The notes under the pieces were generated by a model, which saw nothing but the letters and a program-made list of their open reading frames with translations, did not search any database and had not been told where the DNA came from. From a virus: a stretch of 41,550 nucleotides of DNA. The number at the start of each line of letters is the position of its first letter. Within the stretch, counting starts at the first letter, position 1. Position numbers and translations under genes: made by a program. The stretch covers positions 1-41,550 of the IMG/VR virus record IMGVR_UViG_3300038954_000088; one strand, given 5' to 3'. Shown in pieces: positions 20-41,550 of the stretch.

Positions 20-55
20 TAGACTTTTGACCCGCCCCTATAGCCTTTGCCTATC
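20..55. repeat. Left copy of an imperfect direct repeat shared with the right end
   Basis: This segment carries TAGACTTT, then CCTATAG, then TTTGCCTATC. The same blocks in the same order occur at 41483-41521 at the other end of the window. The left copy overlaps the stop codon of the HNH gene and the right copy overlaps the start of terS. If the ends join, the copies begin 87 bp apart and bracket the HNH-terS gap, the usual place for cos or terminase-binding sites. The matching blocks are seen; the packaging role is inferred. Confidence 0.45.
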
Positions 56-350
56 ACCAGCCGTCCGGCGCGCCGTCGATTCCGATTGCTCGCTTCGTCG
101 TCTTGCCCATTTCGCGCGCTGTTTTCTGAGCGTGATGGCTAGAACATAGACTTTGAAAAGGCCCGGCCCAGAACTTCGCCCTGTCTCCCTTATGCGGCTC
201 TATGTGGTCAACCTCATTGGCTGCGGTGATGACTCCGCGCTCCAGGCAGTGCCGGCACAGCGGCTCTTTAGCCAGATGCGCCCGTCTTAGCCGCCGCCAT
301 CTGCGGTTGCCGTACCAGCCTGTCCAGTAGCGGTCACCCTTTGCTGCCAT
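54..350 (-). CDS. HNH endonuclease (terminase-associated)
   Basis: A 98-residue HNH nuclease of the HK97 gp74 kind, which works with the terminase in cos-type phages. A CxxC pair (LCRHC, about residues 30-34) and a second Cys/His cluster (LCSSHH) look like the zinc ligands. EVDHIEPHKGD holds the catalytic His. The start is taken at MAAKGDRYW because the longer open frame upstream overlaps other genes and has no phage-like sequence. It is last in a run of overlapping minus-strand genes. If the map is circular, terS starts about 100 bp further on, matching the conserved HNH-terS-terL order. Confidence 0.9.
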   Translation of the reverse strand: MAAKGDRYWTGWYGNRRWRRLRRAHLAKEPLCRHCLERGVITAANEVDHIEPHKGDRAKFWAGPFQSLCSSHHAQKTAREMGKTTKRAIGIDGAPDGW

Positions 351-486
351 CGAGATATGAGGTCCGCTCGCCGTTCTCTTCTTGGCTCGCGCCCTCTGCA
401 ATGTGGAACAGACACCCAGCGATCTGAGCCAGCAACTCGCGGATGGCTGCAAGCTCCTTGGCTACCTCACTCTCCGGTGTCGTCAT
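334..486 (-). CDS. Small hypothetical protein (50 aa)
   Basis: A short gene starting MTTPESEVAKELAAIRELL. It overlaps the end of the preceding gene (stop at 467) and the start of the HNH gene (350), the tight packing typical of this transcript. The protein is mostly one amphipathic helix (about residues 5-30), with a single Cys inside a hydrophobic stretch (LLAQIAGCLFHIA) and a charged tail. It has no signal peptide or clear membrane span. I do not recognise the family. Its place between lysis-type genes and the HNH gene says only that it is late-expressed. Confidence 0.55.
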   Translation of the reverse strand: MTTPESEVAKELAAIRELLAQIAGCLFHIAEGASQEENGERTSYLDGSKG

Positions 487-719: not shown

Positions 720-1082
720 TCAGTCAGTAAAAATCTTCCGCACCGCAGTCGCGCCAGCAATCAGCAGGCCGGCCAGACCGATCAGTGTGCCGATGATCCA
801 GGCCGCTGCCTTCTGCCCGCCGCTCATCATCGACCAGGCGATCTTGTTGGCGTTGATGGCGTTCATGATCCGATCGACCTCGGCGTGCCGGTCTTCTCGG
901 TCCGCCTTCATCTCAGCCCTCAGGGCAGCGAACTCATCCCTACCCTCTCGGCTCAGCCGCCTTAGCTCGCCCCACGCTGCCCGCTGCTGGCCTTCCACGT
1001 TTTCAATCCGGGCGATCGCATACGCATGGTCGCGCTCCAGTTGGCGCAGGCGGTCTTCGTGTTCATGCTCAATCTCGCTCAT
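720..1082 (-). CDS. Coiled-coil membrane protein, holin/XhlA-like in shape
   Basis: A 120-residue protein with a long charged helix rich in Glu, Arg and Ala (about residues 5-85, coiled-coil spacing). One C-terminal membrane span follows (AAAWIIGTLIGLAGLLIAG, about residues 94-112) with a short basic tail. This plan matches XhlA-type lysis accessory proteins and other phage proteins anchored by a C-terminal helix. The start is MSEIEHEHED, whose ATG overlaps the stop of the candidate spanin (ATGA). Next to a spanin-like gene, a lysis or membrane role is likely, but no signature fixes it. Confidence 0.6.
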   Translation of the reverse strand: MSEIEHEHEDRLRQLERDHAYAIARIENVEGQQRAAWGELRRLSREGRDEFAALRAEMKADREDRHAEVDRIMNAINANKIAWSMMSGGQKAAAWIIGTLIGLAGLLIAGATAVRKIFTD

Positions 1083-1537
1083 AGCGCCCCCGCCGCCAGT
1101 GCAACGAGCATTGCACCGGTGACCCCGCGATACATGAGGCCGTCGAGCCAGCCCTGGTGTATCTCTCCGACCCACAGCTCGTAGTACGCTCGGGCCTGCG
1201 TCTCGGCCAGCCTGCCGGCCTGCAGCAGCGACCGGCGCTCGGCGTTGATCGCCTGAATCTGACGGTTGCGCTCAATCAGCGCCGCCGTGTTCTCTCTGGC
1301 GACCTCAAGTGCGGCGGCGAGGATGCGGGCCTGCTCGGGCGTCAGGCGGAAGTGATCGACCTGATCCCCGTCCATGACGATCTCGACCTGCCCCACCTTG
1401 GGAATCGGCTCGACCTCGCCCGTCTCGTAGTCGGTCAGCTGGTATTCGGCTAGGGGCGTGCTCGGGGCCGGGGGCGTGTTGGGCGTAATGCCGCAGCCGG
1501 TCAGGGCCAGCGCAATTGTCAGGATCAGGTATCGCAT
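1079..1537 (-). CDS. Lipoprotein with C-terminal hydrophobic segment; candidate u-spanin
   Basis: The start MRYLILTIALALTGC gives a short signal peptide with a lipobox (L-T-G-C, lipidated Cys at residue 15). A proline-rich linker follows, then a long helix (about residues 60-130), and finally a hydrophobic C-terminus (GVTGAMLVALAAGAL). An outer-membrane lipoprotein tethered through a periplasmic helix to an inner-membrane segment is the plan of unimolecular spanins such as T1 gp11, which fuse the two membranes at lysis. The hydrophobic end is short, so an ordinary phage lipoprotein remains possible. It is first in its overlapping run and diverges from the plus-strand cassette at 1630. Confidence 0.6.
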   Translation of the reverse strand: MRYLILTIALALTGCGITPNTPPAPSTPLAEYQLTDYETGEVEPIPKVGQVEIVMDGDQVDHFRLTPEQARILAAALEVARENTAALIERNRQIQAINAERRSLLQAGRLAETQARAYYELWVGEIHQGWLDGLMYRGVTGAMLVALAAGAL

Positions 1538-1541
1538 AGAT

Positions 1542-1596
1542 TGTTTGTAAACGGTGTTGACAACAGCGCCAGAATGTGCGACACTGTTTACAACAC
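1542..1596 (+). promoter_or_regulatory. Promoter with three operator-like boxes
   Basis: A TTGACA -35 box (1557-1562) and a GACACT -10 box (1580-1585) are 17 bp apart and face the cassette starting at 1630. TGTTGACAACA (1555-1565) overlaps the -35, and TGTTTACAACA (1585-1595) starts exactly 30 bp later, just after the -10. Both are near-perfect 11-bp palindromes. A third related sequence, TTGTAAACGGTG, is at 1545-1556. Palindromes on the promoter at three-helical-turn spacing are the signature of repressor control. The XRE protein at 2278 is the obvious candidate regulator. Confidence 0.6.
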
Positions 1597-1629
1597 TAGA
1601 GGAAGCAGCCACACACCAAGGAGCACGGC

Positions 1630-2028
1630 ATGACCATCGAACTCACGACAACCGGACGAGACGGCGCGCTCACCAAGTTCCGCATCACCAATGCCGCCAG
1701 CCTCTGGGACGATTTTCCGGGCACCGGCTACTCGTGCGACATCGACGGTGATGACATCGTAGGTCGCGGCAGCAAGGGCGATATCCGGAAACTGGAGAGC
1801 TGGATTGCTCGGCAGAGCGCCCCGCAGGCCGTTAAGTCGGCTCCGGCTGCTACCAACCAACCCCGACGGGTTCTGGTCCCGTTCGGCAGCGTCAAGCCCG
1901 GCGACGAGATTGCGGGTCGCATCGTTCGGGGGCTGGGTCGCGATTTTTACCCGAATCCGGACCAATTCAGCCAGTGGGGAATCGACCCCAGCTACAGCGG
2001 CACCGTCCAATACGCTTATTTCGACTGA
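1630..2028 (+). CDS. Hypothetical protein, first gene of reversed cassette (132 aa)
   Basis: The ATG follows AAGGAG at a good distance, and the gene is read from the operator-rich promoter at 1542-1596. It runs opposite to every gene on both sides. The N-terminal half (MTIELTTTGRDGALTKFRI...) looks like a small beta-rich domain with an acidic loop (CDIDGDDIVGRG). A Pro/Ala-rich linker (about residues 60-80) leads to a C-terminal part with FYPNPDQFSQWGI. No signal peptide or membrane segment is seen. I do not recognise the family; being first in a self-contained regulated unit, it may be the effector. Confidence 0.7.
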   Translation: MTIELTTTGRDGALTKFRITNAASLWDDFPGTGYSCDIDGDDIVGRGSKGDIRKLESWIARQSAPQAVKSAPAATNQPRRVLVPFGSVKPGDEIAGRIVRGLGRDFYPNPDQFSQWGIDPSYSGTVQYAYFD

Positions 2029-2038
2029 GGAGAATTAA

Positions 2039-2281
2039 ATGCGCTTTTTCACTGAAAACGGGAACGAGTACAAAACCACCGTGCGTAACAGTTACAACCG
2101 AATCCACCACGTAGACCGATCCGGCGGAGGCTACTCGCTGAAATTCGTCTCCAGTGTTCCTCGCGGAATCTACGGAGACAGCAAATTCGACCCACAGCCC
2201 AACCGAGACGCGCACCAGCAAATACGTAGTGCAATCGAGTCGCACGCGGGCAGCCCAATAATCCGGGAGTCGGTCGCATGA
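2039..2281 (+). CDS. Hypothetical protein, second gene of reversed cassette (80 aa)
   Basis: It starts ten bases after the previous stop with a strong SD (GAGGAG) and ends in an ATGA overlap with the HTH gene, so the three genes form one operon. The protein is polar, with many Asn, Arg, Ser and Tyr (NSYNRIHHVDRSGGGYSLKF). It has no cysteine pair, membrane span or enzyme motif. I do not recognise it. Size and position next to an HTH gene would suit half of a toxin-antitoxin or exclusion pair, but nothing in the sequence shows that. Confidence 0.65.
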   Translation: MRFFTENGNEYKTTVRNSYNRIHHVDRSGGGYSLKFVSSVPRGIYGDSKFDPQPNRDAHQQIRSAIESHAGSPIIRESVA

Positions 2282-2472
2282 GCTTCGCCACCCAGCTCCG
2301 CCAACTCCGAACCGACCTGGGCCTCTCTCAGGCCCGGGCGGCAGAACTGCTCGGCCTTAGTCGCGGCGCTATCGCCTATTACGAGGCCGGGAAGCGCGAG
2401 CCGCCCGACGAACCGATCCGCTCGAAACAGCAGATACTCGACGACCTCAAAAGCCGGGCTCAGTCACTCTGA
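2278..2472 (+). CDS. XRE/Cro-family HTH regulator (64 aa)
   Basis: A complete HTH of the XRE type fills the protein: LRQLRTDLGLSQARAAELL then LSRGAIAYYEAGKREPP, followed by a short helical tail. There is no C-terminal dimerisation or cleavage domain, so it is Cro-like rather than CI-like. It is last in the cassette operon and the likely binder of the palindromes at 1555-1595, giving feedback control; that link is inferred. Its 3' end runs tail-to-tail into the minus-strand gene ending at 2464, overlapping by nine bases, with no terminator visible between them. Confidence 0.85.
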   Translation: MSFATQLRQLRTDLGLSQARAAELLGLSRGAIAYYEAGKREPPDEPIRSKQQILDDLKSRAQSL

Positions 2473-2820
2473 GCCCGCAATCCTCTCTGCCAGCTCCCGC
2501 GCCTCGGTTGCGCCCATGCGCTTGCCTTCCTTTTTGCGCAGCTGCTTGATGACCCTGCGGGCGCGGTTCTGATGCCTGACCGCCGCCCGGTCGTGCTCAT
2601 GAGCTGTCGCTCGGGCGTCCAATGCATCCTTGATGCGCTCGACCTTGCCGCCCTCGGCCTCGTGTGCCTGCCGCTTTAGATCGATGGACTTACGGCGGTT
2701 GCGGTTGCTGAGCGCCACGTAGATCGCCACCAGCAGGACGGACACGCCAGCGGCGAGCGCCTTCCAGTATTTCCGGGCGAACTTCCACGCCTTGCGGGCT
2801 TTGGCGATTACGGTTTCCAC
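2464..2820 (-). CDS. Membrane-anchored coiled-coil protein, candidate lysis accessory
   Basis: The reading starts at a GTG (VETVIAKARKAW) overlapping the end of the holin-like gene by 13 bases, with GGGAGG about ten bases upstream. The longer frame upstream only shadows the holin gene. The product (118 aa) has a basic amphipathic N-terminus and one membrane span (ALAAGVSVLLVAIYVALS, about residues 21-38). A long charged helix rich in Lys, Arg, Ala and Glu reaches the end. This is the plan of an Rz-type inner-membrane spanin or of a membrane-tethered coiled coil. The basic, not periplasm-typical, helix argues for caution. Confidence 0.55.
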   Translation of the reverse strand: METVIAKARKAWKFARKYWKALAAGVSVLLVAIYVALSNRNRRKSIDLKRQAHEAEGGKVERIKDALDARATAHEHDRAAVRHQNRARRVIKQLRKKEGKRMGATEARELAERIAGSE

Positions 2821-3041
2821 AGCGAGATATCCTCCCACGTGGCCCCCCAGACATAGCTGGCAATAACCGCCATCGCCATCAGGCGATTGCCGCCGGCGAT
2901 GGTGACCAGCAGGGGCGAGCTTTCCACGCCGACGAACGCTGTCAGCAGCAGAACCACCTCCACAGCAGCGCAGAACCAGAGCGCACCAAAAATGGTGCGG
3001 CGGCGATTTACCCACGTCGGCTTGTATTGCGGGTCTGACAT
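2808..3041 (-). CDS. Holin candidate (two membrane spans)
   Basis: A 77-residue membrane protein. A short polar N-terminus with a basic patch (VNRRR) is followed by two hydrophobic helices, about residues 17-38 (TIFGALWFCAAVEVVLLLTAF) and 43-65 (LLVTIAGGNRLMAMAVIAS). The N-terminal charge, two spans and small size match class II-type phage holins, which open the inner membrane at lysis. It lies between a short gene and a membrane coiled-coil gene in the late transcript, the usual place for a lysis cassette. No family name can be given from sequence alone. Confidence 0.65.
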   Translation of the reverse strand: MSDPQYKPTWVNRRRTIFGALWFCAAVEVVLLLTAFVGVESSPLLVTIAGGNRLMAMAVIASYVWGATWEDISLWKP

Positions 3042-3042
3042 T

Positions 3043-3222
3043 TCAGTTAACCAAGTCCCAAAACTTTTCGTCGATCACCCTCATCATGTCGGCGGGCAGG
3101 TCTAATCGTTTTTCTGACAAGTGACGTGCAATTCGCTCCATTTCCGCGCGCAGATCGTCATTGAACTTTTCGCCTCCGCCATTCAGTGGCGCGTGCTGGG
3201 TGATCGGGATAATGTAGCTCAT
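3043..3222 (-). CDS. Small hypothetical protein (59 aa)
   Basis: It begins at MSYIIPITQHAP, with its ATG overlapping the stop of the DUF5675 gene (ATGA). It ends just before the holin candidate. The second half is one charged helix (LRAEMERIARHLSEKRLDLPADMMRVIDEKFWDLV). No cysteines, signal peptide or membrane span are seen. Translational coupling to its neighbour supports it as a real gene. The function is unknown; its place between the DUF5675 and holin-like genes hints at the lysis module. Confidence 0.6.
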   Translation of the reverse strand: MSYIIPITQHAPLNGGGEKFNDDLRAEMERIARHLSEKRLDLPADMMRVIDEKFWDLVN

Positions 3223-3644
3223 GGATACTCCGGCTGATTCACTCGAATGTCGATATCCCACTGCCCGCGCGCTTCAAGCAGCCCCATAAGCCGTCGGAGT
3301 GACTCTCGGCTCTCACGGACCATCGGGCCGTCAATCGTCCAACTGTGCTGCGAGCCGATCAGCAGGCAGCCGTCGGTGTTTTTGACCCAGTTCCCGACAT
3401 GCAGCATGATCAAGCTGCGGCCGGGAACGTCAGTGACCTCCCAGCCCACGTTGTACTCGCCGTCAGTCGACCGGCGCACCACACCGCTTGAACGCTTGGC
3501 CATCCTGTACACGCCCTCCGGGATACAGGACTCGGAGCGGGCATTGCCGCGCCACGGCAACTCAATCGTGCGGAACGTCTCGTCACCGACTGTCAGGACA
3601 CCTAGGGTCGCCTCCGGGAGATAAGCCCGGCGCAGAGTGAGCAT
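3219..3644 (-). CDS. DUF5675 family protein
   Basis: A 141-residue protein matching the DUF5675 pattern: an N-terminal LTLRRAYLPEATLGVL, then TIELPWRGN, CIPEGVYRM, VPGRSLIMLHVGNW and TDGCLLIGS. The order and the Gly/Cys/His residues resemble L,D-transpeptidase-like folds. The family occurs near phage lysis genes and is sometimes suspected of acting on the cell wall; no activity is proven. The ATG at 3644 overlaps the stop of the preceding gene (TGATG). A GTG one codon upstream is less likely. I see no canonical endolysin elsewhere, so this gene is one candidate for that role. Confidence 0.8.
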   Translation of the reverse strand: MLTLRRAYLPEATLGVLTVGDETFRTIELPWRGNARSESCIPEGVYRMAKRSSGVVRRSTDGEYNVGWEVTDVPGRSLIMLHVGNWVKNTDGCLLIGSQHSWTIDGPMVRESRESLRRLMGLLEARGQWDIDIRVNQPEYP

Positions 3645-5362
3645 CACAGCACCCTCGCCCCGGACGGCAGCTCGGTCACGCGCTCGCTAGCGCCGGATTC
3701 ACCGTGGAGGCCCTTGTACTGGCACTCGGGTCCGTACACGCGCCAGTCGCCCTCGGGGCCGGTGTAGACGGCCCAGTCCGGTGCGTCGCCCTGATACGTG
3801 AATTCGTAGGCAATCGACTCGTCACCCAGGTCGAGAACGCTGACGCCCTGCAGCTCGCCGGTCTCCCACACGCCCGAGCTGGCACCGCCGCGCTCGGCCA
3901 GTCGCTCAAGGTGCTGGTGGTCGACGCCGAACGTCTGGCAGCGATACTTGATGATTCCCTCATCCGGTCCAGTCAGGTACAGCCGCGCCGCGCCGTCGAG
4001 CTGGCGCTCCCGGCCATCAGTGCGGTAGACATCGAGCAGGACATGTCCGTCCTCGATGTGCCCGTCTAGGAACAACCAGACGCGACCACCCTCGGGCAGG
4101 TGTGTGAACCAGTAGCCGACGACGTGCGTGCCCTGCACGTGCAGGCGGAATCCCTGAAACTGATACTCAGGCGCGTACCAGATACCCGCCGCAGTCTCAT
4201 CCATCGCGTGGATATCGGCCGGCACCGCAGGCCAGTCCGGGAAGTCAGGCCGCTGGTCACTGTCGACGGCAATGCGCGTCACGCCGTCCTTTCGGCCCGT
4301 GACCGTCACGACCGCACCGTTGGGCAGCTCGATCGGCTCGTCTGGATTCCATCGGCCCATCTCGTACGTCCTGAATGACGGCCGATTCGGCGGGTCATAG
4401 CGGTGTATCCACACGTAGCCATCGATCAAACGGCCCTTGCCCCACGCGGTCTGGTGGTCGTCGCGGTGTACCGAGACGATGTTGATTTCGTTGTTACGAA
4501 TAATCCGGGCAGCCCGGTATTCACCCGGACGTGCATCTTCTGGCCGGCACTCGACCGGAAGCAGGAACGTCGCCCCGGTATCAATATCGACCACCTCGTG
4601 GTCCTGGATCTGGCCAAGGTAGAGCAGGTGCGCGGCGTTGTGGCCCGAGTAGTGCTTGCCTTGCATAGACGACCCGCCATAGGCGTCCATGCCGCGCCAG
4701 TCGTGCTCGATGCCGCAACAGTGGTACAGCTCATGGATTACCACGCGCGGGTCGCTCATACCCAGCGCGAACACGGCAAACTTCCATGACCCAATATGCG
4801 CAATTCCTTTCAGGCCGCTCTGAGCGCCGCCGACGGTGCCCATGTAGTTATGGCGCTGCCAGTCCGGGTCGATCTGTGCTAGCTGCTCGGCCTCGCGCTG
4901 GAAATTGAATTGCAGGCCCGGCGATTGGTCGCTCACCACCACGAACGGCGTTATCTCGACGACATCCCACGCCACGTTGCTCAGGTGCACGTACTGCTCA
5001 ATCGAGCGCGCCATCCGGCGGACTTGGCCCCATGCGGCCTCAACCTGCCCCCCAGACCGGACCACGCGGACCAGCGCCACGCGCTTCTGGGCCTCGTCAC
5101 GGTAGGCCGCGCCGATTACGTCATAGGACTCCAGCCGGTCACCAGCAAGGTGCGCCCTGACCAAGACATTGCGCGGTGCGCCAGCGATATCTTGGATGCC
5201 CTCGAAAACCCGGCCGTCAAGGCACTCGAAGTCATGCCGGCCCGCGCCGGTTTTGCGTAGCCAGCCTTGCATAACGAGGTCCGTTAAATGGGGCGCAATC
5301 GGCCGGGGTGCTATGACCCAATCGGCCGGTGGAAGTCGCCGCAGCGCATATCTCAGTGGCAT
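3644..5362 (-). CDS. Metzincin-like metalloprotease domain protein
   Basis: A 572-residue protein. The N-terminal part (1-110) is beta-rich and unrecognised. At 210-220 lies HELYHCCGIEH, the HExxHxxGxxH zinc site of metzincin peptidases, followed by SSMQG at 231-235, a plausible Met-turn. The C-terminal 300 residues look like repeated beta-sandwich units rich in Trp, Tyr and Gly (for example VWLFLDGHIEDGHVLLDVY). A virion or lysis protein that cuts surface protein or matrix would fit. The start codon lies in a hairpin and lacks an SD; MQGWLRKTG at 5272 is an alternative start. It is the first gene after the non-coding stretch and overlaps the DUF5675 gene downstream. Confidence 0.75.
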   Translation of the reverse strand: MPLRYALRRLPPADWVIAPRPIAPHLTDLVMQGWLRKTGAGRHDFECLDGRVFEGIQDIAGAPRNVLVRAHLAGDRLESYDVIGAAYRDEAQKRVALVRVVRSGGQVEAAWGQVRRMARSIEQYVHLSNVAWDVVEITPFVVVSDQSPGLQFNFQREAEQLAQIDPDWQRHNYMGTVGGAQSGLKGIAHIGSWKFAVFALGMSDPRVVIHELYHCCGIEHDWRGMDAYGGSSMQGKHYSGHNAAHLLYLGQIQDHEVVDIDTGATFLLPVECRPEDARPGEYRAARIIRNNEINIVSVHRDDHQTAWGKGRLIDGYVWIHRYDPPNRPSFRTYEMGRWNPDEPIELPNGAVVTVTGRKDGVTRIAVDSDQRPDFPDWPAVPADIHAMDETAAGIWYAPEYQFQGFRLHVQGTHVVGYWFTHLPEGGRVWLFLDGHIEDGHVLLDVYRTDGRERQLDGAARLYLTGPDEGIIKYRCQTFGVDHQHLERLAERGGASSGVWETGELQGVSVLDLGDESIAYEFTYQGDAPDWAVYTGPEGDWRVYGPECQYKGLHGESGASERVTELPSGARVL

Positions 5363-5769: not shown

Positions 5770-5985
5770 CTAAATTCCAGAACCTGGAATCAGCACAGCT
5801 CCACCGCTGGGCCTTTCACGAGGCAAATCGTCCAGGCACCTGAGGCTGCGCTCGTGGACGTAGACAGGGAACGCCTCGCGGAACCCCGTCACCGCGCGCT
5901 CGATGCGCTGGTGAAGCTCAGGATTCTCTGACCAGACGTCATGCTGTATTTCAGGCCAGCACTCGTCTAGGCGTATCCAGGTCAT
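5770..5985 (-). CDS. Hypothetical protein (71 aa)
   Basis: The ATG overlaps the stop of the metallophosphoesterase gene (ATGA), so the two are translationally coupled. The protein starts MTWIRLDECWPEIQHDVW, is rich in Glu, Arg and Trp, has a helical middle (ELHQRIERAVTGFREAF) and ends in a small Gly/Pro tail. No membrane span or metal-binding cluster is seen. I do not recognise the family. It is the last gene before the structured non-coding stretch. Confidence 0.6.
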   Translation of the reverse strand: MTWIRLDECWPEIQHDVWSENPELHQRIERAVTGFREAFPVYVHERSLRCLDDLPRERPSGGAVLIPGSGI

Positions 5986-7157
5986 GCCGCAATCATCTCG
6001 GGCTTGACGCTATGACGCCAAACCTCGCCATATCTTTTGTGGTATGTGATAACGGCGGCGCTACGCTTTGAAAGCCAGCCCCCACGGGACGCATGGGCAT
6101 CGGCAGCGGCCAGCGTCGGGTGCTGCTCCACCTCCATCAGCTCCAGTTCCTTAGCGTCCTTGTGGTGCAAATGACCTAGATGCGCGTAGCTGTATTTCGT
6201 GCGGCCCAAAATTTCCCGGAATTTCGCGGCGAACACGGCCTGAATGTTCCCAAGCTTACGTCGGTGGCCGTGGTGGAAAAATAGGCTTGTCGAGCCATGC
6301 TCGTAGCAGTAGTAGGGGTCTGCTGACTGGTCAACCGTCACACGCGGCTCGTTTTCGTAGAGCGCGTGGAAAAACTCACGAAGCCAGACCGAAGATGCAA
6401 GGTCGTGATTGCCCTCGGCCATCAACACCACGACCCTCTGATGCTTCTGTAGCATCAGGTCGATACATTGGCGCAAAACCCGAATAGCTGACCGCACCAG
6501 CTTCTGAAAGCGCGTGTCAGCGTCAAGAATGTGACCAGACGATGGGGTCAGGGCTTCGAGCCCATCCCAGTGAAGCAGATCCCCGATATTCGCGAAATAG
6601 CCAGTCTCAGCATCCGGAGAATTGCTGATTGCGTAGTGCATCCATCTAACCAGCATGTCTTCGGCAATGCTCAGGTCCCAATCCGCGCCAGTTTCCTCGT
6701 GCCAAGCCAGCATGCCGAGGTGATAGTCCGTCAGAACGTACAAGTTCAGCAGGTCGGAATCGCAAGTTCCCGGCGGCTTGGAAGGCTTTAGGCGAGGGAT
6801 GGACCCTGCCATCTCCAACGCAGCCTCGCGCATCGCCTGGGCTTGCCGCTCTTCCTCTCGCGTGGTCTTGACCCACTGGGCAGCGACCTTCTCGCCATCC
6901 TCGCCCATCGTGTAGAGCGTGGAGGTGCCCTTCACACCAAACCCAGGGGCGGCCGGCTTGGCCATGTCCTGGCCCGGTGCCCACCCAATCTTGGCGGCTT
7001 CCTTCAGCGCCCGCTTGTGCTTGGCGGCGAAGCTGCTTGGGTCTTCGCCGATCTTCTTGGCGGCTCGGTGAGGGTTGCCGTATCTCTCTACCGCTTCAAG
7101 GGCGGCGACCTGCGTTTCTCTCAGCCGGTCCCTTACGATCTGAGGGATGCTGCTCAT
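5982..7157 (-). CDS. Calcineurin-like metallophosphoesterase with N-terminal HTH-like region
   Basis: A 391-residue protein. Residues 1-60 are helical with a repeated HTH-like pattern (VERYGNPHRAAKKIG). The catalytic domain shows the metallophosphoesterase motifs in order: DYHLG (about 144), GDLLHWDG (about 193), GNHD (about 250), HGH (about 300) and GHLHH (about 330). These bind two metal ions and hydrolyse phosphodiesters or phosphomonoesters. Similar phage proteins are usually annotated as DNA-acting phosphoesterases, but the substrate is not known. It is the first gene downstream of the attenuated late promoter, with a modest SD (AAGGGG), and is coupled to the following small gene. Confidence 0.85.
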   Translation of the reverse strand: MSSIPQIVRDRLRETQVAALEAVERYGNPHRAAKKIGEDPSSFAAKHKRALKEAAKIGWAPGQDMAKPAAPGFGVKGTSTLYTMGEDGEKVAAQWVKTTREEERQAQAMREAALEMAGSIPRLKPSKPPGTCDSDLLNLYVLTDYHLGMLAWHEETGADWDLSIAEDMLVRWMHYAISNSPDAETGYFANIGDLLHWDGLEALTPSSGHILDADTRFQKLVRSAIRVLRQCIDLMLQKHQRVVVLMAEGNHDLASSVWLREFFHALYENEPRVTVDQSADPYYCYEHGSTSLFFHHGHRRKLGNIQAVFAAKFREILGRTKYSYAHLGHLHHKDAKELELMEVEQHPTLAAADAHASRGGWLSKRSAAVITYHKRYGEVWRHSVKPEMIAA

Positions 7158-7180
7158 TCAGGCCCCTTGGTTTGGGCACG

Positions 7181-7214
7181 AAAAAACCGCCTCGCGGCCG
7201 GAGCCGGGGCGGTT
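7181..7214 (-). terminator. Intrinsic terminator in the late leader (tR'-like)
   Basis: On the minus strand AACCGCC pairs with GGCGGTT, with further GC pairing in the loop region, and a run of six T follows. It lies about 35-70 bases downstream of the expected start of the promoter at 7258-7286 and before the metallophosphoesterase gene. A terminator so close to a strong promoter must be overridden for downstream expression. Confidence 0.85.
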
Positions 7215-7257
7215 AGCACTGCGCTTTGAGCGCATTTATTCCACTTTGCTATACGCG

Positions 7258-7286
7258 AGTGTACCGGGTGTGTCACGGCTTGTCAA
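7258..7286 (-). promoter_or_regulatory. Strong promoter, candidate late promoter (pR'-like)
   Basis: Minus strand: TTGACA (7286-7281), a 17-base spacer, then TACACT (7263-7258). It sits directly after the Q-like gene and fires into a leader of about 70 bases that ends in the terminator at 7181-7214. This copies the lambda Q / pR' / tR' arrangement. A small stem (GCGCTCAAAGCGC) lies in the leader. A Q-binding site between the boxes cannot be recognised by eye. Confidence 0.75.
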
Positions 7287-7288
7287 CC

Positions 7289-7723
7289 TCAGAGCGAAAT
7301 GACCCAGTAGCGATATTCGGCATCCTCGAGCAGCCGGTAATACTGCTTGCGGGAAACGTTGGCGATTCTGGCCTTCGTATGCGCGGCCTTGCTGGTCATG
7401 TAGTGCAACCGCAGAACCAACAGTAGTTTTGCCAGATAGTGCCGGGCATACGGCTCCGCCTCTTTCGCCACCAGCCTCCACATCACGAAATTGTCCTCGG
7501 TGGTCTTCGCCTTTTCTACATCACAAACTGGCGGGCAGCCGGATGGCGAAGCGCCCTTCATCTGGTCATAGAAGTTTGCCTTGTGCGCGTGGCCCAAGTC
7601 AGGCTTCCCGCCATGTGACCATATAGCCCAGTTCCGCAATTCTTCCTGTACCTGAATCCTTAGCTCGGGGCTTTCGTCCCACTTTGAGCGGTGGTCGCGC
7701 TGCTTTCGTGCCGGTTCACTCAT
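7289..7723 (-). CDS. Antitermination protein Q-like
   Basis: A 144-residue basic protein whose C-terminal end forms an HTH (KARIANVSRKQYYRLLEDAE), as in the PF06530-type phage Q proteins. N-terminal features are LRNWAIWSHGG and a Cys-containing loop (GCPPVCD). Q proteins bind the late promoter and let polymerase pass downstream terminators. The context is the best evidence: last gene of the nin-like early region, ending three bases before a strong promoter followed by a short leader and a terminator. The sequence match alone is modest, so another HTH protein such as a DUF1133-type is possible. ATGA overlap links it to the gene upstream. Confidence 0.6.
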   Translation of the reverse strand: MSEPARKQRDHRSKWDESPELRIQVQEELRNWAIWSHGGKPDLGHAHKANFYDQMKGASPSGCPPVCDVEKAKTTEDNFVMWRLVAKEAEPYARHYLAKLLLVLRLHYMTSKAAHTKARIANVSRKQYYRLLEDAEYRYWVISL

Positions 7724-7950
7724 CGCATCCTCCGTTTCTGCTCTCGCCTGCTACGTTCGTACGCTTCTCGGACCAGCTTCCTGCCCTTGTCGGTCTGCAT
7801 TTCTCTCAGCGCCTGTTGCTTCTCGGGGTCGCTCTGGTTGAGCCACGCCATCCAAAGGCTGTAGGCCTCCATACTCTGCTGTGCCAACCAGCCCATCGCC
7901 GTAGTGGTCAGGCGCTCGCCAAAAGTCTTCCTTTCGCTGTCAACGGGCAT
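7720..7950 (-). CDS. Hypothetical protein (76 aa), nin-like region
   Basis: The start MPVDSERKTFGERLTTTAM overlaps the end of rusA (stop at 7940). The 3' end overlaps the Q-like gene by four bases. The protein is helical and highly charged, with a Trp-rich middle (MGWLAQQSMEAYSLWMAWL) and a basic tail (SRREQKRRMR). It has no metal-binding or membrane features. I do not recognise the family. Coupling to both neighbours supports it as a real gene of the early operon. Confidence 0.65.
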   Translation of the reverse strand: MPVDSERKTFGERLTTTAMGWLAQQSMEAYSLWMAWLNQSDPEKQQALREMQTDKGRKLVREAYERSRREQKRRMR

Positions 7951-8329
7951 CGAACCTCTCCGGCCAAGGGTCGCCCCAACTCCAGGGGCTGACGTTGATG
8001 CTGCCGTCAAAGCCCCACAGCTTCCGCGCCGCAATCATGTGGATGTGTGAGTCCTCGTCGTGGATTGCATCGAGCAGCGCCTTGATGAAGTTGTCCAGGT
8101 CGGGCCGCTGGGTGTGCGGCTGACTCAACATCTCCACCTGCTTTTTCTTGCTCCATGACTTCGGCATCGGCACAACGAACGTGACCATTGCGCCGTCCTC
8201 TGGAACCGTCACGCCACGCAACCGGCACTCGTCACAGAAAGCCCGGTAGCGCATCACGGCGGGGCGTTTGGCCCACTTGTCGCGGCGGGTCATGCGGGGC
8301 TTAGCAATTGGGGTGATCGGGTATATCAT
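7940..8329 (-). CDS. rusA: Holliday junction resolvase, RusA family
   Basis: A 129-residue RusA. The N-terminal PITPIAKPRMTRRDKW and MPKSWSKKK match the family's basic start. RPDLDNFIKALLDAIHDEDSHI holds the conserved Asp residues that bind the metal for cutting four-way DNA junctions. It would resolve recombination or replication intermediates before packaging, serving the ERF/exonuclease system on the other strand. The length is normal for the family. It overlaps its neighbours on both sides. Confidence 0.92.
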   Translation of the reverse strand: MIYPITPIAKPRMTRRDKWAKRPAVMRYRAFCDECRLRGVTVPEDGAMVTFVVPMPKSWSKKKQVEMLSQPHTQRPDLDNFIKALLDAIHDEDSHIHMIAARKLWGFDGSINVSPWSWGDPWPERFDAR

Positions 8330-9989: not shown

Positions 9990-11182
9990 GCCTTCACCCC
10001 GATCCCTGATCGCCGAAAAAGCTCGACAAGTGCTGTCGCAGCCTGTAGCGGTACGACGCCATTTCCGATTGCGCGGAGCTGGTGAGTCCGGGATTCGTCC
10101 ACCACCAGGGGCAGCCCATCAACCAGCCCGCAAACGCCGGGTTCAGTCGCCGGGGCGAGGTGGGGGAATTGCTCGAGGATTCCTGCCCATCGGTTATCTT
10201 CGGGGCCCGGGGCGAAAATGGGCAGTGCGCCACAAACTCCGCGCTGTTCGAGCCTTTCACGTCCCGAGTCGCCGGGGTCGGCCACTGCTGAGCCAGAACC
10301 TGAAGGCTGGTGATCGACTTCCGTGCCCCGCCCTTCATGCGGGCCTTCATCGCCATGTGCGCTTCCGGCGTTTTGTTGTCGTCGTTCGACACCGGTGTCG
10401 GCCAGTGGCGGCTCTGCGACTCCAGTCCGACAGTGCGCTTGCCGCTCTCCGTCATGCCCTTGCTCGACACGATCTCCGGCGGCACGCTCCGGCCTCCGTT
10501 CGGGGTGTTCGGAGTCAGCCAATAGTTCGCCTGCCCCGCAAGCGTCGGCCGTTCCGCGCCCTTCTGGCCCTGGTCGCGCGTGTACTCGCTCCCTAGCGCA
10601 CTGACCACGCTTGGAGTCATCCACCCGCCAAGCGAGGCAGAACCATCTGGCGCGCTGGTGGCTGGCTCCCACGTCGGACGCTCGAACAGTGATCCACTCC
10701 GAGTCCCACCCGCGGTCGGCCAGTTCCCCCACGACTCTGGAGGCTGCTCGTTCGTCGAGCTCTTCGGTTTCGTCCACAACGGTGGCGGTGGCAGAAGCGA
10801 TGGCACTGACGTTCTCCAGAACGAGCAGCTGCGCTCCGCAATCATCTGCGATGCTGAGGATGTCGAAGAACAGCCCGGATCGCTTTCCGTCGAGCCCTGA
10901 TCTGCGCCCGGCAATGGATAGATCTTGACAGGGGAATCCGGCAATGAGGCAATCCACTTTTCCGCGCCACGCTGCGCTGTCGAAAGTAAGCAGGTCAGAC
11001 CAGACAGGCGCCGGATCAAGGATTCCCGCTTCCATAAGCGTGACAAGCTGGCCGGCTGCAGCGGCTTCGAGTTCCACGTAGCAAACGGTTCGGTGTCCGA
11101 TGCCAAGAAAGTCGAATGCGGCTCGTGTGCCTTCTCCGAGCATCCCGACTCCGGCGCATAGCTCGATGGAATGTATAGCCAT
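9986..11182 (-). CDS. DNA (cytosine-5)-methyltransferase
   Basis: A 398-residue C5 methyltransferase: ELCAGVGMLGEG (motif I, AdoMet site), GFPCQDLS (catalytic Cys at about 85), LENV (about 120), RARWFCLAW (motif VIII region) and HQLRAIGNGVVP near the end (motif X). It would protect phage DNA from host restriction. The start MAIHSIEL has GGGAGG six bases upstream; a frame beginning at 11187 is too close to that SD. The middle (about residues 190-320) is low-complexity and repetitive (LADSEH, LADTGV, VADPGD), where a target-recognition domain is expected. The same strand is open in a second frame over almost the whole gene. Confidence 0.88.
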   Translation of the reverse strand: MAIHSIELCAGVGMLGEGTRAAFDFLGIGHRTVCYVELEAAAAGQLVTLMEAGILDPAPVWSDLLTFDSAAWRGKVDCLIAGFPCQDLSIAGRRSGLDGKRSGLFFDILSIADDCGAQLLVLENVSAIASATATVVDETEELDERAASRVVGELADRGWDSEWITVRASDVGASHQRARWFCLAWRVDDSKRGQCARERVHARPGPEGRGTADACGAGELLADSEHPERRPERAAGDRVEQGHDGERQAHCRTGVAEPPLADTGVERRQQNAGSAHGDEGPHEGRGTEVDHQPSGSGSAVADPGDSGRERLEQRGVCGALPIFAPGPEDNRWAGILEQFPHLAPATEPGVCGLVDGLPLVVDESRTHQLRAIGNGVVPLQAATALVELFRRSGIGVKA

Positions 11183-11183
11183 G

Positions 11184-11378
11184 TCATGCCTCCCCCTCAA
11201 TCGCCGCCACAATCAGCTCCAGTTCGGGCGGCGCAATGCCCTTCGTGACCGGCGCCCCATCCTTCGTCGTCTGCCGCCACTGCCCGTCGATCAGGGTCAG
11301 GTAGGCGTGTCTTGGGCCGCGTGAGGCGCGGTAGCGGGATTCGGTGATTCGGGTGAGGGTGTAGCCGGCTGGTTTCAT
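11184..11378 (-). CDS. Small hypothetical protein (64 aa)
   Basis: It starts MKPAGYTLTRITESRYRA and ends SELELIV-type helix plus EGEA; the ATG overlaps the stop of the upstream PP-loop gene (ATGA). A strand-rich core (HAYLTLIDGQWRQTTKDG) is followed by a short helix. The first 19 coding bases are identical to those of the gene at 12157. I do not recognise the family. Tight coupling on both sides supports expression. Confidence 0.6.
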   Translation of the reverse strand: MKPAGYTLTRITESRYRASRGPRHAYLTLIDGQWRQTTKDGAPVTKGIAPPELELIVAAIEGEA

Positions 11379-12157
11379 TCTTCCCGCTCCTCGCAGAAAA
11401 TCCCGCACTCAAAGTCCATGTTTTTCATGTCAGCGCCAGCGGCATCTTCTGGCAGCTCGTCAAGAAATATCCGCTCGTTTTTGTAGCGAACCAGCCGAGC
11501 GCCAAGCCTCCTTGACTGTTCTGCTCTGTCGGCAAATACCTCTGGATGGTTTTCTCTAACGTGGTTCCAGTACGTCGGGCTTGTTGCCTTAACGCACCCA
11601 ATGCAGTTGGCGTTCGGATAGCCCATTCGGTAGACGCGGGGCAGCTTTATGCCCGCCTCAAGAATCCGCTGGTAGCACTCGGGCTTGCTGATCTTGTCCT
11701 CAATCAGCACAGGGAGGATGTTTTCCCGCTCCATCATCTTGAAGCGGTCGAAGCGCGGCTGTTCTTCCCATGTAAACCCAAGAACTATCCAGTCGTGGTG
11801 GTTATTTGCCTCCCACTGCTGGCGGGCTTTCTTTTTCAGCTCAAGGGTGCATGGCGCGCCTGCTACGCCCTCCATGTACTTGCGCTTTTCCCAAACCTCG
11901 CGCGCCGAGCACTCCGGGTAGTTTTCGTTTGTCGCGATTTCAATCTCTTGCCCGATCCATCGCTCGACATCTTTGAGAAATCGACGGTTATCCTCGTCCT
12001 CCTCTTTGACCGGATTGTTGATAACTCGGACGGTGCATTCTGGATGTTTCTCTAGGGTCAGTTTGGCGGCCACGGCGCTTGCCGCGCCGCACGAGAACCA
12101 GACCGCTATTACGTCGCCTGCTGATGGCTCATTGCTCTTGTAGCCGGCTGGTTTCAT
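11375..12157 (-). CDS. PP-loop ATPase, PAPS reductase-like (second of a pair)
   Basis: A 260-residue protein of the adenine-nucleotide alpha-hydrolase (PP-loop) class. VWFSCGAASAVAAKL is a variant SGG-type loop, with Cys and Ala in place of the usual glycines, that would bind ATP or PAPS. Cysteine pairs (ECSAREVW, GAPCTLELKKKAR, ANCIGC) follow, and could bind an iron-sulfur cluster or metal. Such phage proteins are annotated as phosphoadenosine phosphosulfate reductases, but their reaction is unknown; DNA sulfur or base modification is a fair guess. Start MKPAGYKSN overlaps the stop of the first PP-loop gene. Confidence 0.8.
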   Translation of the reverse strand: MKPAGYKSNEPSAGDVIAVWFSCGAASAVAAKLTLEKHPECTVRVINNPVKEEDEDNRRFLKDVERWIGQEIEIATNENYPECSAREVWEKRKYMEGVAGAPCTLELKKKARQQWEANNHHDWIVLGFTWEEQPRFDRFKMMERENILPVLIEDKISKPECYQRILEAGIKLPRVYRMGYPNANCIGCVKATSPTYWNHVRENHPEVFADRAEQSRRLGARLVRYKNERIFLDELPEDAAGADMKNMDFECGIFCEEREE

Positions 12158-13041
12158 GCGGCATCCTCCCAATTGACTTCGCAGGACTCTGTGCAGCCGC
12201 CGCCAACGTCTAGATCAAGCTCTAGCTGGTCGGTGTAATCACGCGCATCGTCGGCTGCGGGCTGCCAGCCGCCTTGGGCGGCGATCTGGCGAATGTCATC
12301 AACGCACCGGCCGCCCCGAAAGAACACTCTGGGGGTGCCATCAATGTTGTGGCCAGAAAGCCCGTGCTCGCGCTCCATCCGCTCGGGGAACTTGTACCAC
12401 TCAGGATGCTCAGTAATCAGCGTCAAGTGCTTTCTAAGAGACTTTTTCCAGCACCATTTGCAGTTGCCCTCATAGCCCTTGAGGTTTAGTCTGAAAGGCT
12501 GCCCTGACCACCACTGGTTGATGCGAGGCTTAGTCATTGGCTTATCAGTGACCAGGGGGTAGATCAGCCGTAAGCGTTCTCGCTCTGGTGAGATCCGGTC
12601 AATTTCATCAGAGCGAATGCCGATAGCCGTGTCGTAAGTGCCCTTCTCCCATCCAATGGAGTCTAGATAGCTACGCATGGGATTAAGTTTTAGTTCGCGA
12701 GTGCAGTGGGGGTACGCCTGATTCGGGATGCCATACTTTTCAATAACCGACTCGAACGGCTCGCCTTGGCGTGAAGCGGTCACGAAATCCACGACGCGGT
12801 GCTTGGTGCTCTCCCGCGATCCGTGCTGCACATCCGCTTCAACCCAGACCACGTTTAGCCCGAATTGCTGATCGCACCGCTCTACGAAATACAGCGTTTC
12901 TTCGTTTTCCTGGCCTGTGTTGGCGAACAGGCAAAGAACCTCGTCATACTGGTCAGCGCGGTTTTCAATAAGCCACTGCGCCATGAATGCCGACGTCTCG
13001 CCGCCGGAAAAGCTGATGAATAATCGGTTTACTGGTTTCAT
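12154..13041 (-). CDS. PP-loop ATPase, PAPS reductase-like (first of a pair)
   Basis: A 295-residue protein with ISFSGGETSAFMAQWL, the SGGxTS PP-loop near the N-terminus, then FANTGQENEETLYF. YPHCTRELKLNPM and GNCKWCWKKSLRK add a Cys-x-x-Cys cluster. This is the phage form of the PAPS reductase superfamily. The order of motifs is complete, so it looks active. Its true start is MKPVNRLF, overlapping the dnaB stop. With the next gene it forms a divergent tandem pair, probably subunits of one complex or successive enzymes. A role in nucleotide or DNA modification is inferred from the family only. Confidence 0.85.
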   Translation of the reverse strand: MKPVNRLFISFSGGETSAFMAQWLIENRADQYDEVLCLFANTGQENEETLYFVERCDQQFGLNVVWVEADVQHGSRESTKHRVVDFVTASRQGEPFESVIEKYGIPNQAYPHCTRELKLNPMRSYLDSIGWEKGTYDTAIGIRSDEIDRISPERERLRLIYPLVTDKPMTKPRINQWWSGQPFRLNLKGYEGNCKWCWKKSLRKHLTLITEHPEWYKFPERMEREHGLSGHNIDGTPRVFFRGGRCVDDIRQIAAQGGWQPAADDARDYTDQLELDLDVGGGCTESCEVNWEDAA

Positions 13042-14423
13042 GCTGCGCCTCCTGCCATCTTCTGGAACCGACTTTGCTTGCGGCCGGTCTGCTGTCCCTG
13101 CTCGAGCAGCGACTTGTACTCGGCGATAGCCGAAGCGTCGGCGTTCGCAAACTTCGTGCGCTCGGGCAGCCACATCGTGTAGTGGACTCCGGTCGGACCG
13201 CCCCGGTGCTTAGCCCGGATCCACTCGGCCACGTTGGAATCAAAGTCGTCGTGGTAGTAGCCGTGGCGGTAGAGAAAGATGATCTGGTCAGCGTCCTGTT
13301 CGAGCTGGCCGCTCTCGCGCAGGTCAGACATCTGCGGGCGCTTGTCGCCACGGGCCTCGACGCTGCGGTTGAGCTGCGAGACGGCCACCACCGGAACCGC
13401 CAAGTCCTTCGCCAGCTTCTTGAGCGACCGGCTGATTTCGGAGATTTCGTTCGTGCGATTCTCGCCGCCGGCCTTGAGCAGTTGCAGGTAGTCCACGACG
13501 ATCAGCGCCGTGTCGTGCTTGCGGTGCGTGTACCGCGCCCTCGCGGCGACCTGGTTGACGTGCAACCCCGCCGTGTCATCGATGATCAGCTGGTGCGACT
13601 TGAGCAGCGCCAGCCCCTCGCGGATCTTGCGCCAGTCGTCTTTCGTCAGCCGCTTCGGGTCACGCAGCCGCTCGGGCGGGATGCCCATGCCGGCCGCGCG
13701 GGCCACCAGTTGCTCGCCCGCCATTTCCAGGCTGAAGACCTGAACCGGCTTCGACCGGCTGACGTGTTCGGCGATTTGCAGGGCGGCGGCGGTCTTGCCC
13801 GAGCCGGGTCGGCCAGCGAGCAGGATCAGGTCAGACGGGAGCATCCCCATCATTCCCCGGTCCACATCCACCAGCCCGGTGGTGATCGGCTCGAAGTCCG
13901 GTTGCGCCCGGCGGTCGAGGTCGTCAAGCCACCGCGCGGCGAACTGCGTGATCGGCTTCGGGCCGGTGAACGTGTCCTTGCCCGTCCAGTCCAGCAGCCG
14001 CTCGCTCATGTCCGAGACGATGGCCTCGGGTTCCTCGCCCGCCATCGCCCGGTCGCCCAAGTCCGCCGACAGACCTATCAGTCCGCGAAGGATTGCCTTC
14101 TGGCGCACGATCTTGGCGTAGCCGACCATATTCGCGGGGCCAGGGGTTTCATTGGCGAGCATCGTCAGGTAAGCGCCGTTGTCCACCTTCTTGAACTTGC
14201 CCTGGCGCTGGAACCATTCGCCGACCGTGACCGCGTCGCAGCGGTCGCCGGCCGCGTCGATCTCGACGCAGGCTTTCCAGATCAAGCGATGAGTTTCGCG
14301 GTAGAAGTCATCCTCGGTCAGCAGGTGCGCGACCTTGCCGACGCCGGCCATCATCACCGCGCCCAGGACCGATTGCTCGGCTTCGTTGCTGTGCGGGGGC
14401 GCTTTGACGTTGGGGTCAATCAT
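13038..14423 (-). CDS. Replicative DNA helicase, DnaB family
   Basis: A 461-residue DnaB-type helicase. The N-terminal domain (PPHSNEAEQSVLGAVMM...) is followed by the RecA-like motor with Walker A GRPGSGKT (about 203-210), Walker B ALIVVDYLQLL and the QLNRSVE and SDLRESGQLEQDAD motifs. It unwinds DNA at the fork, moving 5' to 3' on the lagging strand. The length is normal. It starts at the stop of the initiator gene with a small overlap, the O-P-like arrangement in which the initiator loads the helicase. Confidence 0.95.
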   Translation of the reverse strand: MIDPNVKAPPHSNEAEQSVLGAVMMAGVGKVAHLLTEDDFYRETHRLIWKACVEIDAAGDRCDAVTVGEWFQRQGKFKKVDNGAYLTMLANETPGPANMVGYAKIVRQKAILRGLIGLSADLGDRAMAGEEPEAIVSDMSERLLDWTGKDTFTGPKPITQFAARWLDDLDRRAQPDFEPITTGLVDVDRGMMGMLPSDLILLAGRPGSGKTAAALQIAEHVSRSKPVQVFSLEMAGEQLVARAAGMGIPPERLRDPKRLTKDDWRKIREGLALLKSHQLIIDDTAGLHVNQVAARARYTHRKHDTALIVVDYLQLLKAGGENRTNEISEISRSLKKLAKDLAVPVVAVSQLNRSVEARGDKRPQMSDLRESGQLEQDADQIIFLYRHGYYHDDFDSNVAEWIRAKHRGGPTGVHYTMWLPERTKFANADASAIAEYKSLLEQGQQTGRKQSRFQKMAGGAA

Positions 14424-17197: not shown

Positions 17198-17226
17198 AAT
17201 ATACCCGATAAAAAAAATCTAGTCAA
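17198..17226 (-). promoter_or_regulatory. Early rightward-type promoter (pR-like)
   Basis: Minus strand TTGACT (17226-17221), 17-base A/T-rich spacer, TATATT (17203-17198), eight bases before the Cro-like start codon. The match to the sigma-70 consensus is close. It drives the Cro-like and replication genes. An ACCCGAT motif in its spacer is the inverted partner of ATCGGGT in the opposing promoter. Confidence 0.85.
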
Positions 17227-18173: not shown

Positions 18174-18377
18174 ATGAAACACAAATCCACCCAACCCCTC
18201 GACTACGGAGCACCGGACTGGACGTCTAAGAAAATGACACGCAGCGCCCCATTCACCTACGCGGCCTCTGCGCGAGCCGTCAGGCGCGTGGAGCGATCTG
18301 AGCGGCATATCCCATGGCTGGTCGTTGGCTGTATCGTTGTGGCCGCTGTGTGTGCGGTTGGGATGGTGGTGGTATGA
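18174..18377 (+). CDS. Small membrane protein (67 aa)
   Basis: The N-terminal 48 residues are polar and basic (SARAVRRVERSERHIP), followed by a single C-terminal membrane span (WLVVGCIVVAAVCAVGMVVV). The topology suggests the positively charged part stays in the cytoplasm. It starts one base after the methylase stop and its stop overlaps the next ATG (ATGA). The SD is weak, so translation may rely on coupling. I do not recognise a family. Confidence 0.6.
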   Translation: MKHKSTQPLDYGAPDWTSKKMTRSAPFTYAASARAVRRVERSERHIPWLVVGCIVVAAVCAVGMVVV

Positions 18378-39588: not shown

Positions 39589-41109
39589 TCAGTAACCCAC
39601 AATGATCGGGTCGTTAATGAAAGCGTCTATGTCCAATTCTTCCTCCTCGTGCTTGGACATGACTCCTATCGCCATAGCGAGGGCGACCATGCCGTCGATT
39701 CGTCCGCTGCTCTTATCCTTGGCTAACTTCCGGTTGCCCGCCGGATCTTGCTGAACAACTGCATTAGCAGCACACATCCTCAGGACCGGGTGCATTCCGT
39801 GTCTGATCTCTTCGTTCAGCAGCATGGATTCGGTGGCCCGGAGCGCCGGCGACATGTCCTTGAAACCCTGCCCGAACGGCTCGAAGCGCTCCATTTCCTC
39901 TTCGCTAAAACCAGCCTTTGCCAGCCAGGGCCGAAGGTTGTTCATGTTCCAGCGGTCAAATGCGATGGCCCGTACGTTGTAGGTATCAAAAACCTCTCGA
40001 AGCTCGTGCGCAACGAACTCGTAATTGATGGACTTGCCGGGGCACAAATCTAAATTGCCCTGATCCGCCCATACGTCATACGGAACACGATCCTTGCGCG
40101 ACTTCTCCGAGATGCCATCTTCGGGCAGCCAGAACTTTGATTGAACATCGCCGTCTGGCGCAGCCAGTTCCAGCGAGGTCAGGTCGTTAACGCTTGACAG
40201 GTCAAGGCCACCGTAGACTTCCGCGCCCGGCTCTATCTCCGGCTCGCCCCCGTTGGCATCCCAGACCGACTTTGACACGAACGGGTCATTCGCCTCGACG
40301 CGCTGATTGAGGATCAGGTTGCGGTAGCTGGCCTCCATGCTCGGGAGCCGCTTGGCCTTCTCGGCCTGCGACATCACCTCATCGGTGTTCATGAAAGCGT
40401 CGAAGTGAGGGTTACAGGCCCGTATCACTTCTTCGTCGAACGGGTCGGCATCCTCTGGAGCTTGGTACAGCGCGACCTTTATGCGGGGGTCAGTCCCCCG
40501 CTCCGCGTCGTCAATAAGCATCGACAGCAGGTCGCCGTCCGTAGGGGCTTGCGTCGAAATGATGACCGACAGCGGCGATTCCTGCGCACCCGCTGCCGAT
40601 TCGATGGCGTCATACAACTCCGACCGGGGGCCGCGAACCTGCCCCAACTCGTCATGCACCGCGAACGCAGGCGAAAGCCCGTAGGCCGTCGAGGCTTCAG
40701 CGGACAGCGCCTTATACTTGGTGCCCAACTCCGGGCACAGCAGCTCCTTCGCCGTGTCGCGAATCGTGACGAATTCGTTAAGCGACGGCGACATGCGAAC
40801 CATCTTGGCCGCGTAGTGGAACAGGATCGCCGCCTGATCGCGCGATTGCGCTGCCGAGTAAAGCTGGCTGTTTTGTTTCGCTTCCGGCCCGACCGTGTGA
40901 AGCAGAAGCAGGAACGCGGAAAAAACCGTCTTGGCGTTCTTGCGCGGCATCGACAGAATGAACGTCCTAGTTGGCGTGTCATATATAGCCGCCAGCCATT
41001 CACGCTGGTGATCTGTCAGCCGAACAGGGCGGTTTACGAACCGGCCCTCGGGGATGAAGCAGTGCGCCTCAATCCATTCGGCGTTGCGCTGGCTTCTCAG
41101 CTTTCCCAC
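39589..41109 (-). CDS. terL: Terminase large subunit
   Basis: A 506-residue packaging motor. The ATPase part has PRLT-like DHQREWLAAIYD and SMPRKNAKT (Walker A-like), with AFAVHDELGQV (Walker B plus catalytic Glu). IISTQAPTDGDLL is a coupling motif. The nuclease part has YGGLDLSSVNDLTSL and RIDGMVALAMAIG, with the acidic metal ligands. It pumps DNA into the prohead and cuts it at cos or headful sites. The length is normal. Confidence 0.96.
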   Translation of the reverse strand: MGKLRSQRNAEWIEAHCFIPEGRFVNRPVRLTDHQREWLAAIYDTPTRTFILSMPRKNAKTVFSAFLLLLHTVGPEAKQNSQLYSAAQSRDQAAILFHYAAKMVRMSPSLNEFVTIRDTAKELLCPELGTKYKALSAEASTAYGLSPAFAVHDELGQVRGPRSELYDAIESAAGAQESPLSVIISTQAPTDGDLLSMLIDDAERGTDPRIKVALYQAPEDADPFDEEVIRACNPHFDAFMNTDEVMSQAEKAKRLPSMEASYRNLILNQRVEANDPFVSKSVWDANGGEPEIEPGAEVYGGLDLSSVNDLTSLELAAPDGDVQSKFWLPEDGISEKSRKDRVPYDVWADQGNLDLCPGKSINYEFVAHELREVFDTYNVRAIAFDRWNMNNLRPWLAKAGFSEEEMERFEPFGQGFKDMSPALRATESMLLNEEIRHGMHPVLRMCAANAVVQQDPAGNRKLAKDKSSGRIDGMVALAMAIGVMSKHEEEELDIDAFINDPIIVGY

Positions 41110-41507
41110 GGCCTCTTGCCGCCGCCCTGGCTCGCAGAATCAGCGCCCCGTGCGCCGTACTTGCTCTGCTGACTGAGACGCATCTTTGTTGCCAGACGCG
41201 CCAACTGCGAAGCCAGACGATCCTGGATTTTGTGCAGCTTCTCGTAGCTAGCAACGTCCTCGTCACACTCAATGGCGTGGCGCTCCACAAGGTCGCTGAT
41301 GCGCCGATGCTCCAAGCACGTCTTCACATACGCATCAAGCAGGGGCAGTGTCCCAGCATCCCACCAGTCCATCGGCTTGCTGGCCGTAATATGTGCCCAA
41401 AGCGCCGCTGCGTCGTCGCTGTAATGCTCCGGCGGTTTCGGCAGGCCGTTCTCCAACGGCTGAACGACCGAAAGCGAAGCGCTAGACTTTCTTCCGCGCT
41501 GTCCCAT
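41097..41507 (-). CDS. terS: Terminase small subunit, P27 family
   Basis: A 136-residue protein: MGQRGRKSSASLSVV, then PKPPEHYSDDAAALWAHIT and WDAGTLPLLDAYVKTCLEHRRISDLV, the P27-type small terminase signature. It recognises the packaging site and recruits the large subunit. It ends in a Gln/Gly/Arg tail overlapping the terL start by 13 bases. Its start codon lies within the right copy of the end repeat. Confidence 0.92.
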   Translation of the reverse strand: MGQRGRKSSASLSVVQPLENGLPKPPEHYSDDAAALWAHITASKPMDWWDAGTLPLLDAYVKTCLEHRRISDLVERHAIECDEDVASYEKLHKIQDRLASQLARLATKMRLSQQSKYGARGADSASQGGGKRPWES

Positions 41508-41521: not shown

Positions 41522-41550
41522 GTGTTTGTTGCCGTTTATGGAAAGAAACG

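Follow-up and report, generated by a model that had tools for sequence, protein, structure and literature searches.

In lambda, late genes are held back until needed by an antiterminator gene followed by a strong promoter, whose short leader runs into a terminator. The window analysed here, a viral stretch of 41,550 bases, carries a 144-aa open reading frame (ORF) in the last delayed-early position, after the nin and RusA genes and before the late genes (Table 1), raising the question of whether this late switch is present with an antiterminator that homology searches fail to recognize. The reading that we consider most likely, with considerable confidence, is an ordinary lambda-type late switch of the Q/pR'/tR' kind whose Q has diverged strongly. 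That the 144-aa protein acts as a Q is likely, judging from its position, its size and analogy.

Table 1. Features of the Q-slot region and of the late genes in the window
Feature	Position	Strand	Basis
RusA resolvase, usual upstream neighbour of Q	7940..8329	minus	PF05866, 4.9e-13; phrog_140, 1.5e-21
Q-like gene, probable late-gene antiterminator, 144 aa	7289..7723	minus	ORF, ATG start, slot after RusA
pR'-like promoter, TTGACA-17-TACACT	7258..7286	minus	10/12 matches
Candidate Q-binding element, speculative: TGACA twice, 10 bp apart	7271..7285	minus	overlaps -35 hexamer and spacer
Sigma-dependent-pause-like element: -10-like CAAAGT (7248-7243), then GGAATAAATGCG	7231..7248	minus	pause matrix
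Small perfect leader hairpin, TGCGCT-CAA-AGCGCA	7220..7234	minus	-7.0 kcal/mol
tR'-like intrinsic terminator	7181..7214	minus	-18.5 kcal/mol stem and T-run
Exonuclease/phosphoesterase, first gene past terminator	5982..7157	minus	phrog_704, E 2.6e-125
Lysis-type and unknown late genes	720..3647	minus	weak holin-like and spanin matches
DUF5675/phrog_1501 protein	3219..3647	minus	
Holin-like protein, weak match	2464..3015	minus	E 0.063
Rz-like spanin, weak match	720..1175	minus	E 0.0016
HNH endonuclease adjoining right end	54..452	minus	phrog_2323, E 1.9e-28
Terminase small and large subunits, left end	39589..41507	minus	

Genomic context of the Q-slot gene

The phage map is lambdoid, with the late genes extending from Q through the lysis genes and across cos into those for terminase, head and tail. 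Upstream of the Q-slot ORF lie replication genes, including DnaB, followed by NinB, Ref and RusA, and a GGAGG ribosome site is found directly 5' of the ATG of the ORF. HK97-type portal, protease and capsid genes are present in the window, together with tail genes and a tape measure gene, and Erf and RecE genes are located on the opposite strand. The large terminase subunit is closest to that of Pseudomonas phage PAJU2 (68% identity; 48% to HK022), and among genome contigs only remote relatives of it were detected. The terminase genes would be reached by late transcription once the genome ends join. The only near-identical viral record found (L145, 99.99%) runs from window base 9598 to base 41550, and hence stops short of the Q-slot region; because this second record of the same virus ends at exactly the last base of the window, the shared end suggests a true DNA end (cos).

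The original prediction had the late genes beginning past the terminator. This held for the region as a whole, where lysis-type, HNH and terminase genes follow, but the first gene encodes the phrog_704 exonuclease/phosphoesterase rather than a lysis protein. This late-operon exonuclease occurs in further phages, the coliphage Lidtsur group among them, and may be a transferred module; none of the 23 loci carrying its relatives has a detectable Q-like neighbour. For the small ORF at 7720-7947, no relatives were found.

Elsewhere in the window, two neighbouring minus-strand genes beside the DnaB helicase gene (11375-12172 and 12154-13173) both encode phosphoadenosine phosphosulfate reductase-like proteins, and a plus-strand ORF with a SpoU rRNA methylase match (18314-18853) occupies the place where a repressor might be expected. 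In Acidovorax phages Alfacinha1 and 3, the corresponding gene is ~82% identical in DNA to a cytosine methyltransferase gene of the window (9994-11187, minus strand), a likeness that may hint at the host group.

A promoter and a terminator directly behind the gene

The original prediction placed a Q-like gene three bases 5' of a strong promoter, with a leader of only about 70 bases and a good terminator behind it, and each of these elements was recovered. On the minus strand, the 144-aa ORF closes with a stop codon whose last base is 7289; the promoter, which matches the consensus at 10 of 12 positions, opens with its -35 hexamer at 7286. With a predicted start at 7250-7252 and a 3' end near 7181, the leader comes to ~70 nt. 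It ends in a hairpin with the stem AACCGCC...GGCGGTT (7214-7185), followed by a T-run to 7181; no other minus-strand terminator in the window is as strong. A second intrinsic terminator on this strand (32796-32813) lies within the late operon, between tail genes, with the major tail protein gene directly behind it, and an antiterminated polymerase would need to pass it as well.

We assessed how readily such elements arise by chance using 150 dinucleotide-preserving shuffles of the whole window. Promoters of 10/12 quality occurred on average 1.3 times per shuffled window, compared with two on both strands of the real one, so that the promoter by itself is within chance. The other real site (TTGACT-17-TATATT, 17198-17226, minus strand) takes up a pR-like position, preceding the replication genes. 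The pair of promoter and terminator, however, exceeds chance, because a 10/12 promoter with a terminator of -15 kcal/mol or better within 150 nt was absent from all 150 shuffled windows, where three promoters were followed by a weaker terminator. A chance origin of both elements, beside a gene with some other function, is therefore very improbable: as frequent as single promoters of this quality are, the strong pair never recurred, and it sits exactly at the boundary between Q and the late genes, with a pause-like element in between.

A pause-like element in the leader

Q proteins load on polymerase that is held at a -10-like sequence within the first transcribed bases (PMC6606751). In the window, such a sequence is found at the start of the leader, and the 3' end of the pause would be expected near 7232. 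The leader, CAAAGTGGAATAAATGCGCTC, can be compared directly with that of HK022, CAACGATGGATAAATGCACTC. On a matrix of the pause regions of lambda, HK022 and HK225, the window leader ranks first among 83,056 positions; the matrix was picked after the likeness had been noticed, and an equal score occurred somewhere in 16 of 200 shuffled windows, so the strength of the match lies in its position, just where a pause is expected.

The promoter region was also searched for direct repeats that might constitute a Q-binding element. The repeated TGACA is not beyond chance, repeats of equal quality being found in 31% of shuffled promoter cores. No family in Rfam matched the region 7050-7400, and no close relative containing the Q-slot and leader region was found. 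Behind its pause-like element, the window leader has the small perfect hairpin listed in Table 1. PAJU2-type leaders (L124-L139) carry a different, invariant hairpin, GCGGTTTTACCGC, shortly after the promoter and just before a mosaic boundary; it is unchanged in all copies seen, and the sequence behind it varies.

Comparison with late-control loci of other phages

The slot occupied by the 144-aa ORF is annotated as Q in DLP12, PAJU2, HK225, HK639, HK97, phi80, phi9.2 and BZS1. In HK022, the Klebsiella phage phi9.2, a PAJU2-type Q locus (L139) and a locus with an unrecognised Q-slot protein (L112), Q is followed by a promoter at 2-43 nt and a terminator at 58-133 nt, and the spacing in the window (promoter at 3 nt, terminator at 75 nt) falls inside the range of these surveyed loci. 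The same survey found no consensus promoter behind Q in HK639, HK225, BZS1 or L140, and neither promoter nor terminator in L106. Among the database records, that of phi80 annotates pR', a Q site and the terminator, and those of HK639 and HK225 annotate the terminator.

The proposed lambda late-control layout is borne out by gene order, promoter, leader length, terminator and pause-like element, all of which agree with lambda, HK022 and phi80. As in lambda, HK022 and HK97, nin genes lie upstream, Q is followed within ~50 nt by a strong promoter and then a short leader, here with a candidate pause sequence similar to theirs, and a terminator precedes the late genes. Gene order, promoter and terminator are direct observations, as is the likeness between the pause-like region and its counterparts in lambda and HK022. 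In contrast to those phages, the promoter here begins 3 nt past the gene and an exonuclease is the first late gene. Lambda Q itself, at 207 aa, is larger than the 144-aa protein and unrelated to it in sequence. The terminator of lambda is ~190 nt away, whereas that of the window is nearer.

The late region of PAJU2, beside which the published case of YA3 can be set (PMC7326022), shares with the window not only the closest terminase but also the order of NinB, Q-like gene, promoter, leader hairpin, lysis genes, HNH and cos. Its Q-like protein, however, is a clear member of PF06530, and its terminator lies further away. A more distant parallel is AlpA of Pseudomonas aeruginosa, which acts at a promoter element, needs the -10-like pause sequence CACGAT and reads through a nearby terminator (PMC9371919). 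The CAAAGT of the window keeps the key A and T of that sequence, but AlpA is a chromosomal regulator of cell lysis, and no sequence match between it and the 144-aa protein was found.

A divergent Q-slot protein

The 144-aa protein had no match above threshold in Pfam, PHROGs, PDB sequences or phage records, and no relatives of the ORF were found in phages, plasmids, viral contigs or species genomes. The merely weak resemblance to known Q proteins noted at the outset was confirmed: the PF06530 profile (curated cut-off 26 bits), which had been proposed for the comparison, left the protein unmatched even at E 10 and matched nothing anywhere in the virus record. Membership in PF06530 (Phage_antitermQ) was dropped on this result. 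Comparison with lambda Q and with the phi80/HK225-type Q by hhalign gave E-values of 0.64 and 0.74 over 7 and 1 columns, respectively.

A home-made Q21-type profile, built from ten Q21-type proteins, ranked the 144-aa ORF first of the 251 ORFs in the window, over 98 columns and above all 400 shuffles. This rank is only suggestive, because omitting groups from the profile lowers the score from 26.4 to 17-21, while genuine distant members still score at least 55. A W-x-x-W motif near the N-terminal start is common to the protein and all aligned Q proteins.

The predicted structure lies closest to the Q of phage 21. The sequence alone gave no usable model (pLDDT 45); a second model, built from an alignment with Q-family rows, reached a pLDDT of 71. 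With VIA-align, Q21 entries took ranks 1-4 against the second model (Z 8.1-6.6, aligned over 94-98 residues), and sigma region 4 domains came next; this fold match is partly circular because Q-family rows were used in the model alignment; Foldseek with the same model returned nothing significant from the PDB or a viral library. The fold of Q21 resembles sigma region 4 (PMC6606751). On these predictions, we infer that the 144-aa protein may have the Q21 fold. It also resembles Q21 (PF06530; PDB 6P18-6P1C, 6JNX) in size, in the W-x-x-W near the start and, in the model, in HTH-like C-terminal helices, with Q21 the best structural match. The differences are that there is no Pfam-level sequence match and that the promoter element of Q21, TGAGCA-type direct repeats 8 bp apart (PMC6606751), is not evident in the window promoter.

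Two other readings of the protein have to be weighed against this evidence. In the first, the ORF would encode a DNA-binding activator or another nin-region protein, the promoter and terminator would belong to a small-RNA gene or to an ordinary late promoter under attenuation, with some other factor activating the late genes. The lack of a recognised Q family match fits this account, and HTH-like helices would suit other regulators, with DeoR among the fold matches besides sigma region 4. Nevertheless, we regard it as unlikely, given that many phages have a Q of this size in this slot and with these neighbours, and that no other Q candidate emerged: PF06530 matched nothing in the record, and no other ORF of the window scored above this one on the Q21-type profile.

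The second reading, which is doubtful but somewhat harder to set aside, would make the protein not a divergent member of the Q21 type but a Q from a further, undescribed family that arrived at the same function independently. Such a family would show no sequence relationship to lambda Q, Q21 or the phi80 type, would recognise a sequence of its own within the promoter spacer, and would perhaps give the leader hairpin a role. There is precedent in that lambda Q and Q21 are themselves unrelated in sequence; the Q-slot protein of L104 and L112, with promoter and terminator right behind it, likewise goes unrecognised by the Q21-type profile; and for the window protein that profile gives weak, unstable support and the lambda Q and phi80-type profiles give nothing. 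The W-x-x-W and the order of features shared with Q21-type proteins, the first rank on their profile and the best fold match all point instead to the Q21 type. As regards the switch, an independent family is a sub-case of the late-switch explanation, which we continue to prefer.

A model for late-gene control

For the lambda-type switch, we propose the following scheme, in which the identity of the Q, its loading at the pR'-like promoter and all kinetics are part of the model. Polymerase would start constitutively at pR' near 7250 and pause ~20 nt in at the -10-like sequence, with sigma still held. Without help it would then stop at tR' near 7181, yielding the ~70-nt leader RNA, which may accumulate as a stable RNA as long as the 144-aa protein is absent. 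Once the early transcript had yielded enough of this protein, it would bind the promoter region, load on the paused polymerase and narrow the RNA exit channel. The loaded polymerase would pass tR' as well as terminators further along, that at 32813-32796 among them, and thereby reach the late genes, from the exonuclease gene through those for lysis and packaging to those for head and tail.

This environmental lambdoid phage thus provides a compact case of late control whose probable antiterminator would escape a search by homology alone. The locus suggests that layout can serve to find Q genes, the pattern being RusA and a small gene followed by a promoter and then a short leader with a terminator.
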